Positions 78-44,302 of a stretch of DNA of 64,000 bases are shown here, piece by piece. The notes under the pieces are model-generated. The model made no database searches. It was not told the DNA's origin and saw only the letters and a program-made list of their open reading frames with translations. The stretch's first letter is position 1. Every line of letters starts with the position of its first letter. The position numbers and the translations under genes were made by a program. Source of the stretch: Eggerthella sp. (lineage in GTDB: Bacteria; Actinomycetota; Coriobacteriia; Coriobacteriales; Eggerthellaceae); NCBI GenBank assembly GCA_030540085.1, contig JAUNWY010000001.1:89480-153479 (forward strand), read 5' to 3'.

Positions 78-3000
78 ATGGCACGGGCATTTTCAAAAGA
101 CACCTTCCGCACTATTGCCAACAGCAAGAAGCGCTTTATTTCCATCCTGGTCATTTGCGCATTGGGCGTAACCATGGTGTGCGGCCTGCGCGCATCCTGC
201 GTAGACCTGCGCAATTCCGCCGACACCTTCTTCAATGAGCAAGGCCTCTACGATGTATGCGTACAGTCAACCTTAGGGCTGACCGAAGATGATGTTGCTG
301 CCGTTTCTTCGCTAGAAGGCGTTGCCGCCGCAGAAGGAGCCTGGGAAGAAGAGACCTATACGCCACTTGGCCAAAAACGCGCAAGCGTAGGGGTGAAGGC
401 CCTTTCAAGCGAAGGGTTCAACATGCCCAAGGTTCTTGATGGCACCCTACCCACAAATGAGCATGAAGTTGCTGTAACAGAAAACTACCTAACCGACTCG
501 GGACTTTCGCTCGGCGATACCGTTACGCTTGAAGAAAACGACAACGAGGTGTTCGAGCGAACCCAATACACCATCACCGCTAGCGTGATAGACCCAACCG
601 AGCTCACCAACCCTAACGGATCCATCGCCATACGAGCCAGCGCATCGCCCGACTACTCGTTCTTCGTAACACCCGATGCTGTAACCGCCGATGTGTTCAC
701 TGCCATATACGTGAAAGCCAAGAACAGCACAGGGGCAAAAAGCTTTTCTCCCGAATATTCCTCACTTCTTGACAACCTCACCACCCAGATAGAAGGAATC
801 AAAAAACAGCGCGAAGAGGCGCGGACGGAGCAGATCCGCCAGGATGCGCTCGACGAAATCGCTGAAGCAGAAGCCGAGGTAAACGAAGAGCTTTCCGATG
901 CGCAGCGGAAAATCGACGACGCACAAAGCACGCTTGATTCAGGCAAACGGGAAATTGCCGCGAACAAACGCACTTTGCGCAGCAACGAAAACACCCTAGC
1001 TCAATCGGAAGCCGAGCTTCGACAGCAAGAAAATCAGCTGGCAAACGCCTCAAAGCAGATCGAAGATGGCTATGCCGCAATCTCAAACGCACAAGCCCAG
1101 ATCGACGAAGGCCGAGCCCAAGCAAATGCCGCTTGCGATGATGCGGCGGCGCAAGTTAAAGCCGCTTTGGCCGCTGGCATGATAAGTGAAGAGGAAGCCT
1201 CGGCGCAGCTTGCGGGCATTGAAGCACAGCGCGCTCAAACGCTTGCCCAGCTCGATGCCCAGGAAAAACAGCTTTCCGCGGGCAAACAGGAGCTCGACGC
1301 CCAGGCAGCGCAGGTTTCAGCGGGGATGAAAGCAATCTCGCAGGGCAAGGAACAGCTTTCCGCGGGCAAACAGCAGTTGAAGTCGGGTAAACAACAGCTT
1401 TCTGCCGCCGAGACAGAGCTTGCAGAAGGCCAGGCTGAGCTCGATGAACAGCGCGCACAGTTTGAAAGCAGCAAAGCTGAAGCCCACGCAAAATTCGAAG
1501 ACGCCCGGGCTGAAGTCGACGACATCGAGCAAGGACGTTGGTACGTGCAGACGCGCGAATCGAACGCAGGCTACGCCAGCATTGAATCGGATGCTTCTTC
1601 CATTGAGGCCATCGGATTCGTCTTCCCCGTAGTGTTCATCGTGGTTGCCGTGCTCATTGCACTCACCACCATCACCCGTTTGGTTGAAGAAGAACGCGGG
1701 CTTATCGGCACCTACAAATCGCTGGGGTACCGCAACCGCTCCATCTTGGGCAAATACCTGACGTACGCGCTTTTGGCGTGTCTCCTGGGCAGCGCTGTGG
1801 GCGAATTCTGCGGATTCGTGCTCTTCCCCGCGTTCCTGTTCACCGTGTTCCAGATGATGTATCTTTTGCCCACGTACCTGCTTTCATTCGACACGTTCTA
1901 TGGCGTGGGTAGCATGCTGTTCTTCATTGCGGGAATCGTTGGAGCTGCGGTATTCGCCTGTCGCGCCGAACTTGCGCAGACGCCCGCCACGCTCATGCGT
2001 CCGAAGGCGCCCCGCTCCGGCTCGCGAATCCTCCTTGAGCGAATCCCCTTCGTCTGGAAGCGCTTGGCATTCCTGGATAAGGTAACGGCACGCAACTTGC
2101 TTCGCTACAAGAAGCGCTTCTTCATGACGGTATTCGGAATCATGGGATGCATGGCTTTGCTTATCTGCGGATTTGCCATCAAAGACTCCGTGCATGCCCT
2201 TTCCCCCATGCAGTATGGTGACATTTATCGCTATGACGCCTTGGCAATCACCAGCCCCAACAACTTCAAAGATTGCGAAACGTTGCTTGAGGGAAACGAG
2301 GAAGTTTCCTCTATCCAAGAAGTTGCCGTCGATTCGGTAACCCTCACCTCCAACGGCGACGACGAATCGCTGCAACTGTTCGTGCTTCCCGATGGCGCTG
2401 ATCTTTCTCCCTATGTTTCGCTCAAAAGCGGTGAAGAGGCACTGCCCCTTTCCGACAGCGGCATGATTCTCACGCGAAACGCTGCCGACCTTTTAGGGGT
2501 AGGCGCAAACGACGAAATCACCGTGAAAACCAGCTCACTCGACGAAGCTACCGTGCCCATAACCCACGTTGCAGACAACTACTTGGGCAATGCCGCCTAT
2601 CTTACGCAAAGCGCCTATGAGCAGCTGTTCGACGAAGAGGTTCAGCCCAACGGCTTCTATCTTGCGCTTTCAGGCAACGACACCGAAAAAGAGGCATTCG
2701 CCGACAGCTTGGCTGAACGCAACGAATTCCTTTCCGTTTCCAGCACCCAGCAGATGAACGAGGAATTCTCTAAGTCGTTCGACCTGATCAACACTATTGT
2801 GTACGTTATCGTCTTCTTGGCAGCGGCGTTGGCATTCGTAGTGCTGTTCACGCTTTCCACAACCAACATATCTGAGCGCACGCGCGAATTGGCAACCATC
2901 AAGGTGTTAGGCTTCCGCAAACGCGAAGTTAACCACTATGTGAATAAGGAAACGGTACTGCTAACCGTTATCGGCGTAGTTTTGGGTATCCCCGCAGGAT

Positions 3001-3440: not shown

Positions 3441-4619
3441 CTATTGGCCCAGTTCGCGCCAGGGCCCTATCCTGTTCGAGCTCTGCTGGTCTTGCTTAGG
3501 CTCTTGAGGCTCCCTGCTCTCGGGCTTGCGACGAGGGTTGAAATGGTGGCTCAGAGCATCGCCCAACAGACGAAGCTTCACAATAGCGTACGCCGTAACC
3601 GCGCAGGCAATAAGGAAGATGGGGATGCGCACCAGATTGTCGGCCCAGGTAATGATTACGCCACAGGCGGCAAGGAGTGCCGTCCAAGCCCACATGATAA
3701 GCACGGTTGCGCGTTGGCTGAATCCTGCACGCATCAGGCGATGGTGAATGTGCCCCTTGTCCGCTTCGTCGATAGGACGATGCTCGCGCTTTCGACGCAC
3801 AATGGCGAAGAACGTATCGAGGATCGGAACACCTGCCGCCAGAATAGGCACCAAGAGCGAAACAAACAAGGCTGAGCGCGCTACAGCAAACAGGGAAATG
3901 ATGCCCAACGCAAAACCAAGAAGCAGTGCGCCTGAATCACCCATAAAGATGGATGCAGGGAAGAAATTGGACTTCAGGAAGCCTGCACACACGCCAACAA
4001 GAATGACACTGAACAGCGCCGCATCGAAGCGTCCGGTAAGCACCGCGAACAGCAAGATGGTTATTGCGGAAATACCCGTAATGCCCGCCGCCAAGCCGTC
4101 AAGGCCGTCAATCAAGTTGATAACGTTGGCAAAAGCCACCAGGTAGAACACCGTTAGAGGGTAGGCAACCCAGCCAAATTCAATGTACCCCTCGCCAAAA
4201 GGATTGTGGATACTGGAAAACAACAGGCCAGAACAGGCAACCACGCAAGCAGCAACTATCTGTCCCAGCATCTTCGCTTTGGGGTTCAGGTCAACCACAT
4301 CATCCACGGCGCCCACGAGAAATATCAAAACCGTGCCCAGCAAAACGCCCCAATAGTTGACCTCGATACCGTTGTAGTCAACGAAAGGATCAATCCATCC
4401 GAAAACATGGACGCCCAGTTCGGCAACGACGAGCGCCGCCAAAATGCCGCCGAAAATAGCCACACCGCCCATACGCGGGATAGGAAGCATGTTTACGCGG
4501 CGAGCACTGGGGTAATCGATGGCATCAAGTTTGATAGCAAGCTTGCGGGCAAGAGGGGTCAAGGCAATGGTAACCACTGCGGCAACGGCAAAGAGAACGC
4601 CGTATTCAAGCCAGTCCAT
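3441..4619 (-). CDS. undecaprenyl-phosphate sugar-1-phosphate transferase (WecA/TagO/MraY-like)
   Basis: A 392-residue polytopic protein of glycosyltransferase family 4. It transfers a sugar-1-phosphate (in relatives GlcNAc-1-P) from a UDP sugar to undecaprenyl phosphate at the cytoplasmic face of the membrane, the first step of wall polymer or surface glycan assembly. Diagnostic motifs are DDVVD (106-110), NLIDGLDGLA (168-177), MGDSG (226-230) and HIHH followed by R (290-294). These are the Mg-binding and WecA-type HxHH motifs, and they favour WecA/TagO over MraY. An AGAGGGGG ribosome site precedes the ATG. It is divergent from a family 2 glycosyltransferase that may act on the same lipid-linked glycan. 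Confidence 0.88.
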   Translation of the reverse strand: MDWLEYGVLFAVAAVVTIALTPLARKLAIKLDAIDYPSARRVNMLPIPRMGGVAIFGGILAALVVAELGVHVFGWIDPFVDYNGIEVNYWGVLLGTVLIFLVGAVDDVVDLNPKAKMLGQIVAACVVACSGLLFSSIHNPFGEGYIEFGWVAYPLTVFYLVAFANVINLIDGLDGLAAGITGISAITILLFAVLTGRFDAALFSVILVGVCAGFLKSNFFPASIFMGDSGALLLGFALGIISLFAVARSALFVSLLVPILAAGVPILDTFFAIVRRKREHRPIDEADKGHIHHRLMRAGFSQRATVLIMWAWTALLAACGVIITWADNLVRIPIFLIACAVTAYAIVKLRLLGDALSHHFNPRRKPESREPQEPKQDQQSSNRIGPWRELGQ

Positions 4620-5062
4620 GCGCCCCCCTCTTTCTCGAACTTATTGGATAGCGCGGCAGAACGCGCTCACGCCAAATGATGATTATATACCGAAGAGACG
4701 CTTCTCCCGACTACAGCTACCTAACGGCATCGCAAGCGCAAAGAGAGGGGAGGCCGTCATCTACGTCGGCGCAGAAAAGCAACCGCCGATTTTATCGGCT
4801 TTTCGCATGGTCTTGACTTGCTCGAGCGCGCGGGCCCTCCGCTTCGGGAATCGCAACCACGAAGCAGCCCACAGACTGCCCCGCGCCCACGCCAAAGAAC
4901 CTTACAATCCCCCTCTGCCAACAGCTTACTTTTGCAGCCTTTGTGGAGAGCAGCCATCAAAACGTGGAAGTACCTTGTACTCCCCGTCGGGCAACACATT
5001 CGGCACTACTGCATTGTGTAGAATGAGCGAGTTGAAACCCGTAGATTCAGGAGAAGGTGTTC
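4620..5062. other. divergent intergenic region between the two glycosyltransferase genes
   Basis: A 443-base region with no supported gene. A small perfect hairpin, GCCGAT-TTT-ATCGGC followed by TTTT, lies at 4786-4804 and looks like a plus-strand terminator or attenuator. A TATAAT-like box is readable on the minus strand at about 4682-4687 and could serve the WecA-like gene. On the plus strand AGGAG at 5049-5053 is the ribosome site of the glycosyltransferase. Confidence 0.4.
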
Positions 5063-28146: not shown

Positions 28147-28223
28147 TGGTGCGCCGTGAGGGATTCGAACCCCCGACGTACTGATTCGTAGTCAGTCCCT
28201 CTATCCAGCTGAGGTAACGGCGC
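28147..28223 (-). tRNA. tRNA-Arg (anticodon ACG)
   Basis: A 77-base cloverleaf with encoded CCA. The acceptor stem pairs GCGCCGT with ACGGCGC. The anticodon stem ACTGA/TCAGT encloses the loop CTACGAA, giving anticodon ACG. The T arm contains GTTCGAATC. ACG is the usual inosine-edited bacterial tRNA-Arg for CGN codons. Its own terminator follows. Confidence 0.96.
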
Positions 28224-29158: not shown

Positions 29159-30508
29159 ATGCTCTATCTATCTCAAATGCTCGGCGAACCCGTCGTTGAT
29201 GCAAATGGCGAAAAGATCGGTTCCGTATCCGACCTGGCCATCCAAACTGGCGAAGTGTTCCCCCGCATCACCAGCCTGGCATTTCTAGGCCCCGGCAAAA
29301 CGCCTTTTATGATCTCTTGGCGTAAATACGTCGACAGCTTCGACGAAGACGAGGGCATTCGCCTGAAAGTCGACCGCACCGCCATCCGCTTCAGCTACCT
29401 CCAGCCCGCCGAAGTGCTCCTCGCACGCGACCTGCTCGATAGGCAGATCGTAGACACGCAGGGCATGAAGGTCGTGCGCGTAAACGACCTGAAGCTCTCC
29501 GTTTCCGGAACGCAATTGCGCCTTCTTGGTGCAGAAGTGGGCGTTCGCGGCATTCTGCGTGGCTTGGCTCCGTGGGTGGAAAAAGCCGCCTGCGGCATCG
29601 CCAAAACGTTCGGCAAAAGCATCGACGAGCGTATCATTGCATGGAACTACATGGAACTGCTCGACCGCGACCTTTCCAAGGTGCAGCTCTCCGTCAGCCA
29701 CACGCGCCTGGAAGAACTGCACCCTGCCGACGTGGCAGACATCTTGGAGCAACTCGATCCGAAGCAGCGCGCCAATGTGTTTCAGCACTTAGATGACGCG
29801 CAAGCCGGCGACGCCATTTCGGAAATGGAAGACGAATTCCAGGCCGACATCATCGAGGGCCTGGACGAAAAGCGCGCATCCCGCCTGCTGCGCGACATGG
29901 ACCCTGACGACGCCGCCGACATCGTGGGCGACTTGCCCTACGAGAAAGCCGAAACGCTGCTCCGCCTGATGGGCGTCGACAACGCCGCAGAGATCCGCAA
30001 GCTGCTGGGATACAAGGAAGACACCGCTGGCGGCCTGATGACCACACAGTTTGTGGCAATGCACACCTCCGACACCGTGCAGGAAACCACTGAAGTTCTT
30101 CGTGGCTTGGACGAAGACCACCCCACGGTGAACTACGTGTACGTGCTAGATGAATACGATAAGCTTGTGGGCGTGCTTTCGCTCCGCACCTTGGTACTCG
30201 CAAAAGACAATACTCCGCTTTCCGACATCATGTTCGATGAGCTTATCACTTCGCTGCCCGAAGAACCCGAAGATGAAGTTGCAGCCGATATCTCCAAGTA
30301 CGACCTGATGGCCATGCCCGTCGTCGACGAGAACGGACAGATGCTGGGCATCGTCACCGTCGACGACGCAATGGAGGTCATCGAAGACAACGTGGAGGAA
30401 GGCCGCACACGCTGGGCATGGGGGCAGTTCGCCATCACACTTGCTGTGTTTATCGTACTGATGATTCCCTATACCTTCTTTGTCCTCCGCATGTTCGGAC
30501 ACAACTAG
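29159..30508 (+). CDS. MgtE-N/CBS domain protein with N-terminal PRC-like domain, putative Mg sensor
   Basis: A 449-residue protein. The N-terminal 85 residues look like a PRC-barrel domain (MLGEPVVDANGEKIGSVSDL). Residues about 185-290 match the superhelical MgtE N domain (HPADVADILEQLDPKQRANVF, MDPDDAADIVGDLP). Two CBS domains follow (about 295-415). It ends in a single membrane helix (about 424-445) and lacks the five-helix MgtE channel. It therefore looks like the Mg-sensing cytoplasmic part of MgtE without the pore. The transporter gene follows 15 bases later, so it probably gates or reports Mg for that partner. This is inferred from MgtE, where the same domains bind Mg and close the pore. 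Confidence 0.85.
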   Translation: MLYLSQMLGEPVVDANGEKIGSVSDLAIQTGEVFPRITSLAFLGPGKTPFMISWRKYVDSFDEDEGIRLKVDRTAIRFSYLQPAEVLLARDLLDRQIVDTQGMKVVRVNDLKLSVSGTQLRLLGAEVGVRGILRGLAPWVEKAACGIAKTFGKSIDERIIAWNYMELLDRDLSKVQLSVSHTRLEELHPADVADILEQLDPKQRANVFQHLDDAQAGDAISEMEDEFQADIIEGLDEKRASRLLRDMDPDDAADIVGDLPYEKAETLLRLMGVDNAAEIRKLLGYKEDTAGGLMTTQFVAMHTSDTVQETTEVLRGLDEDHPTVNYVYVLDEYDKLVGVLSLRTLVLAKDNTPLSDIMFDELITSLPEEPEDEVAADISKYDLMAMPVVDENGQMLGIVTVDDAMEVIEDNVEEGRTRWAWGQFAITLAVFIVLMIPYTFFVLRMFGHN

Positions 30509-30523
30509 GATCGAGGCTTTTAC

Positions 30524-31846
30524 ATGACACTTAAGGAAAGTACAGCGCAGGACACCGCCCTGGCAGCCAAGGCTTCCCCGCAAGTTCCTGATCAGGGTGG
30601 CGACAACGACGGCAAGAAGCAGCACTCGAAAGCATTCCTGGTGCTTGCCGCTATGGGCCCTGGTATCGTAACCGCCATGGCGGGCAACGACGCCGGCGGC
30701 ATTTCAACCTATTCCACCGTAGGCGCGAAGTTCGGTTACATGACGCTGTGGATCATTCCCGTCATGTGCATTTTGCTTATCGTGGTGCAAACCACGGCAA
30801 CGCGCATGGGCGCTGTTACCGGCAAGGGATTTTCGGCGCTGATCCGTGAAAGCTTCGGCATCCGCCTCACGGCGCTCGCTATGTTGGCGCTGCTCATCGG
30901 CAACGTCGCCACCACCTTTTCAGAATTCGCAGGCGTGGCTTCGGGCATGGAAATGTTCGGTGTGCCGCGCTGGATATCGGTCCCCGTTGCCGCGGCAGCC
31001 GTTTGGGGCCTCATCGTGGGAGGCAGTTACAAACGCGTGCAGAATATCTTCCTGGTGCTTTCGTGCGTATTCGCCACCTACATCGTTGCGGCATTCTTGG
31101 CACAACCTGATTGGAATGAAACCTTCCAGCACACCCTGGTACCAGCGGCAAGTTCGGATTTGAGCTTCCTTTCGCTTACTGTTGCGATGGTCGGCACCAC
31201 CATCGCCCCCTGGATGATGTTCTTCGCCCAGAGCAACGTGGTTGAAAAAGGCGTGCGGGTACGCGATCTTCCCTATCAACGCATCGACGCAATAACCGGC
31301 GCCGTAGTGGGCTGTATAGTGGCGTGGTTCATCATCGTAACCACCGGTACCGTATTGTTCCCCCAGGGCATCGAAGTAGAGAGCGCCGAAGCTGCCGCGG
31401 CGGCACTCGAGCCCTTCGCAGGCCAATACGCTAAAGCACTGTTTGCCATCGGCCTGGTAGCCGCAAGTTTGCTGGCCGCCTGCGTTCTGCCCCTTACCAC
31501 CGCCTTCGTAATCTGCGAGGCATTCGGCTGGGAGGCAGGCGTTTCGTTCACTTGGAAGGAAGCGCCCCTGTTCAAGGGCATCTTCACGTTTGTCATCGTC
31601 GTTTCAGCGGTGGTTATCCTTGTTCCCAACATTGACTTGATGGGAATCATGCTCACCGCACAGTTCGTAAACGGCGTTATTCTGCCTGTACTGTTGGTGT
31701 TCATGGCAATCATCTGCACCGACAAGCACGTTATGGGCAAATACGCAGTGGGCAAATTCACCCGCATAATCCTATGTTTCACCATCGTGGTGGTGGGCAT
31801 TCTTTCCGCCATCTGCTTGGTTATGCAGGTACTGGGAATCGGTTAA
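30524..31846 (+). CDS. NRAMP-related divalent cation transporter, probable Mg2+ carrier (NRMT type)
   Basis: A 440-residue SLC11-fold protein with about eleven helices. The canonical helix 1 metal motif DPGN is replaced by DAGG (NDAGG, residues 55-59). The helix 6 motif MPHN is replaced by APWM (about 228-231), so the sulfur-containing Mn/Fe ligand is missing. This is the pattern of NRAMP-related magnesium transporters described in Clostridium and Eggerthella. Location right after an MgtE-N/CBS sensor supports Mg2+ as substrate. The N-terminal 35 residues are a hydrophilic cytoplasmic tail. Confidence 0.88.
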   Translation: MTLKESTAQDTALAAKASPQVPDQGGDNDGKKQHSKAFLVLAAMGPGIVTAMAGNDAGGISTYSTVGAKFGYMTLWIIPVMCILLIVVQTTATRMGAVTGKGFSALIRESFGIRLTALAMLALLIGNVATTFSEFAGVASGMEMFGVPRWISVPVAAAAVWGLIVGGSYKRVQNIFLVLSCVFATYIVAAFLAQPDWNETFQHTLVPAASSDLSFLSLTVAMVGTTIAPWMMFFAQSNVVEKGVRVRDLPYQRIDAITGAVVGCIVAWFIIVTTGTVLFPQGIEVESAEAAAAALEPFAGQYAKALFAIGLVAASLLAACVLPLTTAFVICEAFGWEAGVSFTWKEAPLFKGIFTFVIVVSAVVILVPNIDLMGIMLTAQFVNGVILPVLLVFMAIICTDKHVMGKYAVGKFTRIILCFTIVVVGILSAICLVMQVLGIG

Positions 31847-31924: not shown

Positions 31925-31965
31925 AAAGCGGCCTCGGAGAAATCTCCCCGAGGCCGCTTTATTGC
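31925..31965 (+). terminator. terminator of the Mg transport operon
   Basis: AAAGCGGCCTCGG pairs with CCGAGGCCGCTTT around a short A/T loop, 79 bases after the stop. The downstream T-run is short. Confidence 0.75.

Positions 31966-44226: not shown

Positions 44227-44302
<76 letters not shown>

Follow-up and report, generated by a model that had tools for sequence, protein, structure and literature searches.

What could be the task of a gene that encodes the magnesium-sensing part of an MgtE channel without the channel itself, when it stands immediately upstream of a gene for a transporter of a different fold? Such a gene pair is found in a stretch of 64,000 nucleotides from Eggerthella sp. 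(NCBI GenBank assembly GCA_030540085.1, contig JAUNWY010000001.1, positions 89,480 to 153,479 of the forward strand; the whole stretch is called the window hereafter), where open reading frame (ORF) 1, the sensor gene, is followed by ORF2, the gene of an NRAMP-related Mg2+ transporter (NRMT; Table 1). A preliminary description made from the sequence had proposed that the two are a split regulator-transporter pair. The comparisons with other genomes make it very probable that sensor and NRMT are functional partners of some kind, and as to the kind of partnership we lean towards the reading that the sensor is a dedicated cytosolic, tail-anchored Mg2+ sensor subunit that would restrain the adjacent NRMT at high cytosolic Mg2+.

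The ORF1 protein has the MgtE_N and CBS sensor domains of an MgtE. Pfam matches comprise PRC (PF05239, 45.0 bits in two stretches), MgtE_N (106.6 bits) and CBS (56.3 bits in two stretches), and the same search found no pore domain PF01769. With 191.5 bits the profile TIGR00400 (mgtE) does not reach its cut-off of 232.75, and the match covers only profile positions 15-258 of 450; the five-helix pore with the motifs PX6GN and P(D/A)X4PX6D, which characterize MgtE pores (PMC9276622; here and below PMC numbers stand for the excerpts available of these papers), is missing from ORF1. In an AlphaFold model based on 57 sequences (predicted local distance difference test, pLDDT, 88.8; predicted template modelling score, pTM, 0.58) the order is PRC1, PRC2 with its helices, the MgtE_N superhelix, the CBS pair and a C-terminal helix of residues 419-447, with two PRC-like beta units, a low-confidence link near residues 171-178 and a pLDDT in the 60s for the C-terminal helix. 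The part comprising MgtE_N and CBS domains resembles cytosolic domains of MgtE, including the Mg2+-bound structure 2yvy (TM score 0.84 by target). Pfam, TIGR00400 and the model thus agree with the preliminary description in that MgtE_N and two CBS domains are followed by a single helix and no pore; the N-terminal PRC-like domain it had noted is also present, yet as a tandem module of approximately residues 1-165 rather than as a single domain. In all 14 sensors of the window's family (f1) the protein terminates in one hydrophobic helix, which carries in its middle a conserved Tyr followed by Thr or Ser (14 of 14), looking as if these residues made a specific contact.

ORF2 matches the Nramp family (PF01566) with 276.2 bits across nearly the whole profile, and the domain matches of both proteins lie far beyond chance. 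Its best match in the PDB is 7qia, the NRMT of Eggerthella lenta (EleNRMT), with 654.7 bits over residues 30-439, the next being at 90.6 bits. The preliminary description had pointed to the NDAGG and APWM replacements of Mg-transporting NRAMP relatives, rightly so, as D56-AG-G59 and T225-TI-A228 conform to the ion-site signature DxxG-TxxA/T given for NRMTs in the EleNRMT paper (PMC8806188). ORF2 is a full-length NRMT close to EleNRMT, which transports Mg2+, is not proton-coupled and is active without a partner in proteoliposomes (PMC8806188), and Mg2+ transport without proton coupling is predicted for ORF2 as well.

Do the two genes occur independently of each other? In the sample of the window's class (119 genomes; NRMT called at 244 bits or more, 20 weaker matches of 84.5-175.2 bits being excluded as other NRAMPs) 91 genomes have NRMT and 90 of these a PRC-bearing sensor, the exception (G101) being a partial match. 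All 90 pairs are on the same strand with gaps between the matches below 1.2 kb, and the sensor is upstream in 89; of the remaining genomes, seven have only the sensor and 21 lack both genes. Among 149 genomes of Acidobacteriota (NRMT at E≤1e-60, full PRC sensor defined by a profile start at 1-4) NRMT is found in 41 and the full PRC sensor in 41, and these are the identical genomes, although the two genes lie within 800 bp in only 25, within 10 kb in 7 and are unlinked in 9. For the Actinomycetota (296 genomes, 24 of them shared with the NRMT genomes of the class sample; NRMT cut 224.5 bits) the figure is 58 of 61 NRMT genomes, with G154 (a partial sensor, locus L109), G173 and G230 as exceptions; 26 genomes have a PRC sensor but no such NRMT, namely one with a fusion to an MgtA-type ATPase (G338) and 25 with distant sensors (at most 173.2 bits), eight of which adjoin an NRAMP relative (about 197-222 bits), several of the others coming from genomes of Streptomyces size. 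In the best 80 of 590 candidate named loci of other phyla (Nitrospirota, Desulfobacterota, Myxococcota, Acidobacteriota, Omnitrophota and others) the sensor is within 5 kb in 66, absent despite an open upstream flank in nine and cut off in five; it is present elsewhere in the genome for all nine non-syntenic loci and for two of the five cut-off loci (plus one fragment). Canonical MgtE, recognized by a query start at about 148 or later in the class and about 151 or later in Acidobacteriota, is rarer in genomes with NRMT (3 of 91 versus 12 of 28 others in the class, 3 of 41 versus 81 of 108 in Acidobacteriota). In 237 loci no ORF was found that joins sensor and NRMT.

Because the genes do not occur independently, even when unlinked, the co-occurrence check suggested in the preliminary description strongly supports a regulator-transporter pair; the word split is not entirely apt, since the ancestor of the sensor is a pore-dead MgtE, as set out below. 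Some loci deserve a remark of their own. L159, labelled as a metagenome-assembled genome of Bifidobacterium breve, has NRMT and a soluble sensor of an Acidobacteria/Nitrospirota-like kind and is probably a mislabelled or contaminated bin. In L135 (G049:C30) the sensor frame is broken near residue 261, by a sequencing error or as a split gene of the kind reported for C. acetobutylicum. L233-L237, mostly from genomes of Streptomyces size, have distant PRC-MgtE_N-CBS proteins and no NRMT, and the genes nearby are presumably, to judge from their sequences, DUF1003, Mrp and, in L233, CorA.

The pairing and the idea of a feedback regulator were published in 2014, so that the core of this proposal is not new: Shin et al. 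found a homologue of the N-terminal cytoplasmic domain of MgtE encoded in most NrmT neighbourhoods and speculated that it provides cytoplasmic feedback or acts as chaperone (PMC4072509). The second of their suggestions, a metal chaperone or buffer, is very improbable, as Mg2+ is millimolar and a stoichiometric buffer would do little, and as the sites conserved in the sensor are allosteric sites in MgtE (PMC5882242). What is new is the route by which the pore was lost, a probable docking patch, the near-exceptionless co-occurrence and the joining of the sensor to a third kind of Mg pump.

How did an MgtE lose its pore? Unlike family f1, nearly all other sensors of the class are encoded by ORFs about 200 residues longer, with 4-6 predicted helices. 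In some of these pore-dead sensors PF01769 is still clear (L078, 61.6 bits; L086, 37.8 bits), in others it is just below the cut-off of 27.6 (L046, 27.1; L085, 26.3; L098, 26.2) or weak (L047, 19.8), and L106, L121 and L132 have no match at E≤0.1. When 43 of these C-terminal domains were compared, profile to profile, with canonical MgtE pores, the probability was 98.8% (E 7e-17). The residues of the pore have been replaced: the equivalent of D432 of TtMgtE is D in 9/9 canonical MgtEs and in 0/44 pore-dead sensors (usually M, otherwise G, S, A or V), that of G328 is G in 9/9 and 0/44 (E, Q, H, D, R instead) and that of N329 is N in 8/9 and 1/44. Since the replacements are conserved within groups, the pore-dead domain did not simply decay. 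In a quick tree without bootstrap, which comprises 99 sensors and MgtEs, takes canonical MgtE as its root and is weak (77) at the fork ordering the basal lineages, pore-dead forms fall into the two Actinomycetota lineages nearest the root and channel-less forms appear in four places (f1, 100; the family f7, 100; the MgtA fusions, 100; a large soluble clade, 99), which requires a minimum of four state changes. The plain reading of tree and alignments would be a path from MgtE via pore-dead MgtE to the channel-less sensor, with the five-helix domain devoid of selectivity residues as intermediate. Annotation should take heed of this, as a call of 'magnesium transporter' by TIGR00400 can fall on a pore-dead sensor; at least one, L220, exceeds the cut-off of 232.75 (269.3 bits) though its pore motifs are gone.

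Outside the NRMT genomes the sensor is found with another partner. L218 (G338:C8) and L219 (G300:C77) each encode in one ORF of 1318 amino acids a PRC-MgtE_N-CBS sensor, 53-54% identical to that of the window, followed by a Mg2+ P-type ATPase (TIGR01524, 1099.3 and 1077.4 bits; cut-off 610.75). In family f7 (L118 and L119, no NRMT) a soluble sensor directly follows the gene of an MgtA-type ATPase (1151.3 bits in L118, partial in L119). Beside the pair in L118 we noted by eye a CNNM/CorB-looking gene (322-1875, minus strand) and another PRC-like gene (4199-4981, plus strand), the latter having no NCBIfam match at E≤1e-5. All seven class genomes with a sensor and no NRMT have an ATPase over the cut-off, as do 25 of the 91 NRMT genomes; for that reason mere presence of MgtA in the five genomes of family f6 is weak evidence for a change of partner, and in four f6 loci inspected a Mg transporter gene adjoining the sensor was not seen. 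The fusions also bear on the proposal that the target of the sensor is not the transporter at all but gene expression or the ribosome. RimM contains a PRC domain, and PRC1 has weak matches to the RimM family (E 8e-4 to 5e-3), which would suit a RimM-like use; a sensor fused to a membrane ATPase, and the five-helix or one-helix membrane parts of the Actinomycetota sensors, point to the membrane instead and make this proposal quite improbable. A wider account can be offered only tentatively, with the odds somewhat against it as a whole: a pore-dead, PRC-tagged MgtE would have been kept as regulatory subunit of NRMT with PRC2 as dock, its pore would have been lost repeatedly, being replaced by nothing, by one tail anchor or by an ATPase, and the sensor would have been reassigned to MgtA ATPases, as a neighbour in one lineage and as a fusion in another, so that one sensor would serve three unrelated transporter folds.

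What could the sensor sense? Mg2+ is bound in TtMgtE by D91 and D247 (Mg4), D226 and D250 (Mg5), D95 (Mg6) and E59 (Mg7) (PMC5882242), and the window's sensor has an acidic residue at each of these positions (Table 1). Full sensors from other phyla have D at D95 in 60/60 and at D91 and D247 in 50/60 each, and at D226 mostly N (35/60; D in 7). In three groups of pore-dead sensors both residues of the plug site, E258 and D259 of TtMgtE, are kept throughout (18/18, 8/8 and 13/13), and 4/5 of f6 keep them as well; in soluble sensors they are mostly K, R or gaps, and the window aligns E and G. In the alignments the Mg2+-sensing interface has thus outlived the pore, and the sites coupling sensor and pore have not; Mg2+ binding by the sensor is predicted. 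Alternatively, the sensor may read another ligand (ATP/AMP, Mn2+ or Co2+), and Mg2+ need not be the main substrate of the transporter in every lineage. CBS pairs are known to bind nucleotides, the window keeps Y170 and R187 of the ATP site, and the Acidobacterium capsulatum transporter acted as a Mn transporter (PMC4072509). Such a ligand is nevertheless improbable, given that the equivalents of D188, N203 and F227 of the ATP site are changed in the window, that changes of partner go to MgtA-type Mg2+ ATPases and that EleNRMT carries Mg2+ (PMC8806188).

Where would sensor and transporter meet? D94, Q96, D99, R107, D110 and R134 of PRC2 are among the most invariant residues of the sensor. The triad Q96/D99/R107 is present in 140/140 PRC modules from NRMT-holding genomes (33 of the class, 35 further Actinomycetota, 59 of other phyla and 13 unlinked sensors of the f31 group), with D or N at D94 in triad-keeping modules, and in 2/17 other modules (f7, 0/2; MgtA fusions, 0/2; f6, 2/5; Streptomyces-like, 0/5; beside distant NRAMPs, 0/3). 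From this distribution we infer that PRC2 docks onto NRMT through the face formed by the triad. A PRC-only protein (ORFs of about 190-300 amino acids) adjoins NRMT in 13 loci that lack a full sensor next to it (L080, L081, L084, L087, L088, L091-L095, L097, L101 and L103). A single-sequence search had listed these 13 Actinomycetota loci as having no partner, which was overturned when a profile search found the PRC-only neighbour in each; the resulting count of 33 of 35 Actinomycetota NRMT loci with a sensor comprises 18 full sensors, L102 (part of a sensor, at a contig edge), L109 (PRC and part of MgtE_N) and the 13 PRC-only loci, and in L110 and L112 the profile search found neither a sensor nor a PRC-only neighbour. 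That PRC-only proteins are merely a split-off half of the sensor was dropped as an explanation, as a PRC-only paralogue stands beside NRMT together with a full sensor in three loci of the f37 group (L085, L096 and L098).

Co-occurrence and triad would fit equally well if the sensor were a factor for assembly, localisation or turnover of NRMT, determining its membrane site or delivering it to a protease at high Mg2+ without gating it directly. The PRC-only proteins beside NRMT suggest that the PRC part can work alone, and when metals reach toxic levels the rhomboid protease YqgP cuts MgtE itself (PMC10710835). On the other side, the near-perfect keeping of the Mg4 and Mg6 acids argues for a graded Mg2+ signal, and the MgtA fusion looks like allostery and not like trafficking. 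We regard such a role as unlikely, though less so than the other alternatives discussed.

How could a sensor subunit restrain NRMT? At high cytosolic Mg2+ the sites in MgtE_N and CBS domains would be filled and the sensor would compact as it does in MgtE; the compact sensor, docked through PRC2 and in family f1 held at the membrane by its tail helix, would then restrain NRMT, and as Mg2+ falls the sensor would loosen and NRMT would import Mg2+. Since EleNRMT is not proton-coupled, Mg2+ would keep entering down the membrane potential and NRMT would need an external brake; its uncontrolled entry may be likened to that through MgtE or CorA deprived of their sensors. Several observations weigh against such a restraining subunit. 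Co-expression of the A. capsulatum partner did not improve Mg rescue, the transporter of this organism rescued a Mn defect, and the NrmTs of C. acetobutylicum rescue growth without a sensor (all PMC4072509). An inhibitory sensor fits the unimproved growth at low Mg2+ and the activity of EleNRMT on its own; a sensor with no effect on transport fits equally. The co-occurrence statistics ignore shared descent, and the independent comparisons of partner and triad on the tree number only three (four without the support filter), which nearly all agree (sign test, p 0.25). Five f6 genomes hold a sensor without NRMT, the triad being kept in two of them. To these are added the changed ATP-site residues of the window and the fact that E258 and D259 are mostly lost outside the pore-dead forms, so that the coupling of sensor and transporter must differ from that in MgtE.

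The features of the locus are collected in Table 1. Upstream of the pair no M-box or other riboswitch was found with Rfam (gathering threshold or E≤1), the single match at E≤1 being a microRNA family (21.4 bits, cut-off 90) that was taken as noise. A promoter and terminator scan of the locus gave counts no different from shuffles. The window's genome (1.56 Mb in 16 contigs, 80.15% complete) has NRMT as its sole NRAMP; CorA, canonical MgtE and MgtA over the cut-off were not found in it, which at 80% completeness is no proof of absence, and its sister genome G058 has CorA. Two tRNA genes lie elsewhere in the window (28150-28223 and 44230-44302, both on the minus strand).

Table 1. Features of the sensor-NRMT locus (positions in the window; residues of the encoded proteins)
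Feature	Positions	Strand	Remarks
Sensor gene, ORF1	29159..30508	+	449 aa; tandem PRC, MgtE_N, CBS pair, one C-terminal helix, without MgtE pore
PRC1	29159..29383	+	about residues 1-75; best PF05239 stretch 2-59 and structure model
PRC2 and following helices	29384..29653	+	about residues 76-165; with MgtE_N the most conserved part; proposed docking module
QIVDTQGMKVVRVND	29444..29488	+	residues 96-110; contains the Q96/D99/R107 triad, which tracks NRMT partnership
MgtE_N	29717..30022	+	residues 187-288; equivalents of TtMgtE E59, D91, D95 are D, D, D
CBS1	30026..30202	+	about residues 290-348; Pfam match and model
CBS2	30215..30385	+	about residues 353-409; equivalents of TtMgtE D226, D247, D250 are D, D, E
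Single C-terminal hydrophobic helix	30413..30499	+	residues 419-447; model; found in 14/14 family f1 relatives
Intergenic gap	30509..30523	+	15 bp; two-gene operon layout
NRMT, ORF2	30524..31846	+	440 aa; full-length Nramp
DAGG (D56..G59)	30689..30700	+	helix 1 ion-site motif, NRMT type
TTIAPWMM (T225..A228)	31196..31219	+	helix 6 ion-site motif, NRMT type; Ala replaces Met of NRAMPs
12-bp perfect inverted repeat, 10-base loop, then TATT	31926..31959	+	terminator-like; by eye and pattern; not in terminator-scan output

The question of what the MgtE-like neighbour of NrmT does, raised in 2014, is now reduced to tests at the level of residues, namely of the Q96/D99/R107 patch and of sensor sites versus pore sites, in a system whose transporter has a solved structure. 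If the restraining role is true, a sensor borrowed from a channel makes an uncoupled NRAMP uniporter safe, and regulation is able to pass from one transporter fold to another.

Compared with known systems, the window is closest to the pair of NrmT and MgtE fragment of Shin et al., having two like genes in like order with the fragment immediately upstream. PRC domains, a pore-dead pore domain, tail anchoring and a change of partner to MgtA are not mentioned in the available part of that paper, and an M-box is found upstream in some of its members only (PMC4072509). A literature search covering few subscription journals found no paper that joins a PRC-barrel with MgtE or NRAMP, none on MgtE as a pseudochannel and, for an MgtE-MgtA fusion with CBS, one review that does not mention NRMT. 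EleNRMT is alike to the window's NRMT over the range given above, with an ion-site signature identical in type; the EleNRMT paper covers the transporter alone, the words operon, CBS and PRC being absent from its main text as available (PMC8806188). With the MgtE channel (TtMgtE, 2yvx/2zy9) the window shares the MgtE_N and CBS sensor with its conserved Mg2+ sites, but its sensor is poreless, has the PRC tandem added and would act in trans, if at all. The long CorA homologues of Dechloromonas aromatica and Magnetospirillum, known here by description (PMC9276622), are alike in carrying an MgtE-like sensor part on an unrelated Mg2+ transporter and differ in that their MgtE-like N-terminus is covalently fused to CorA.

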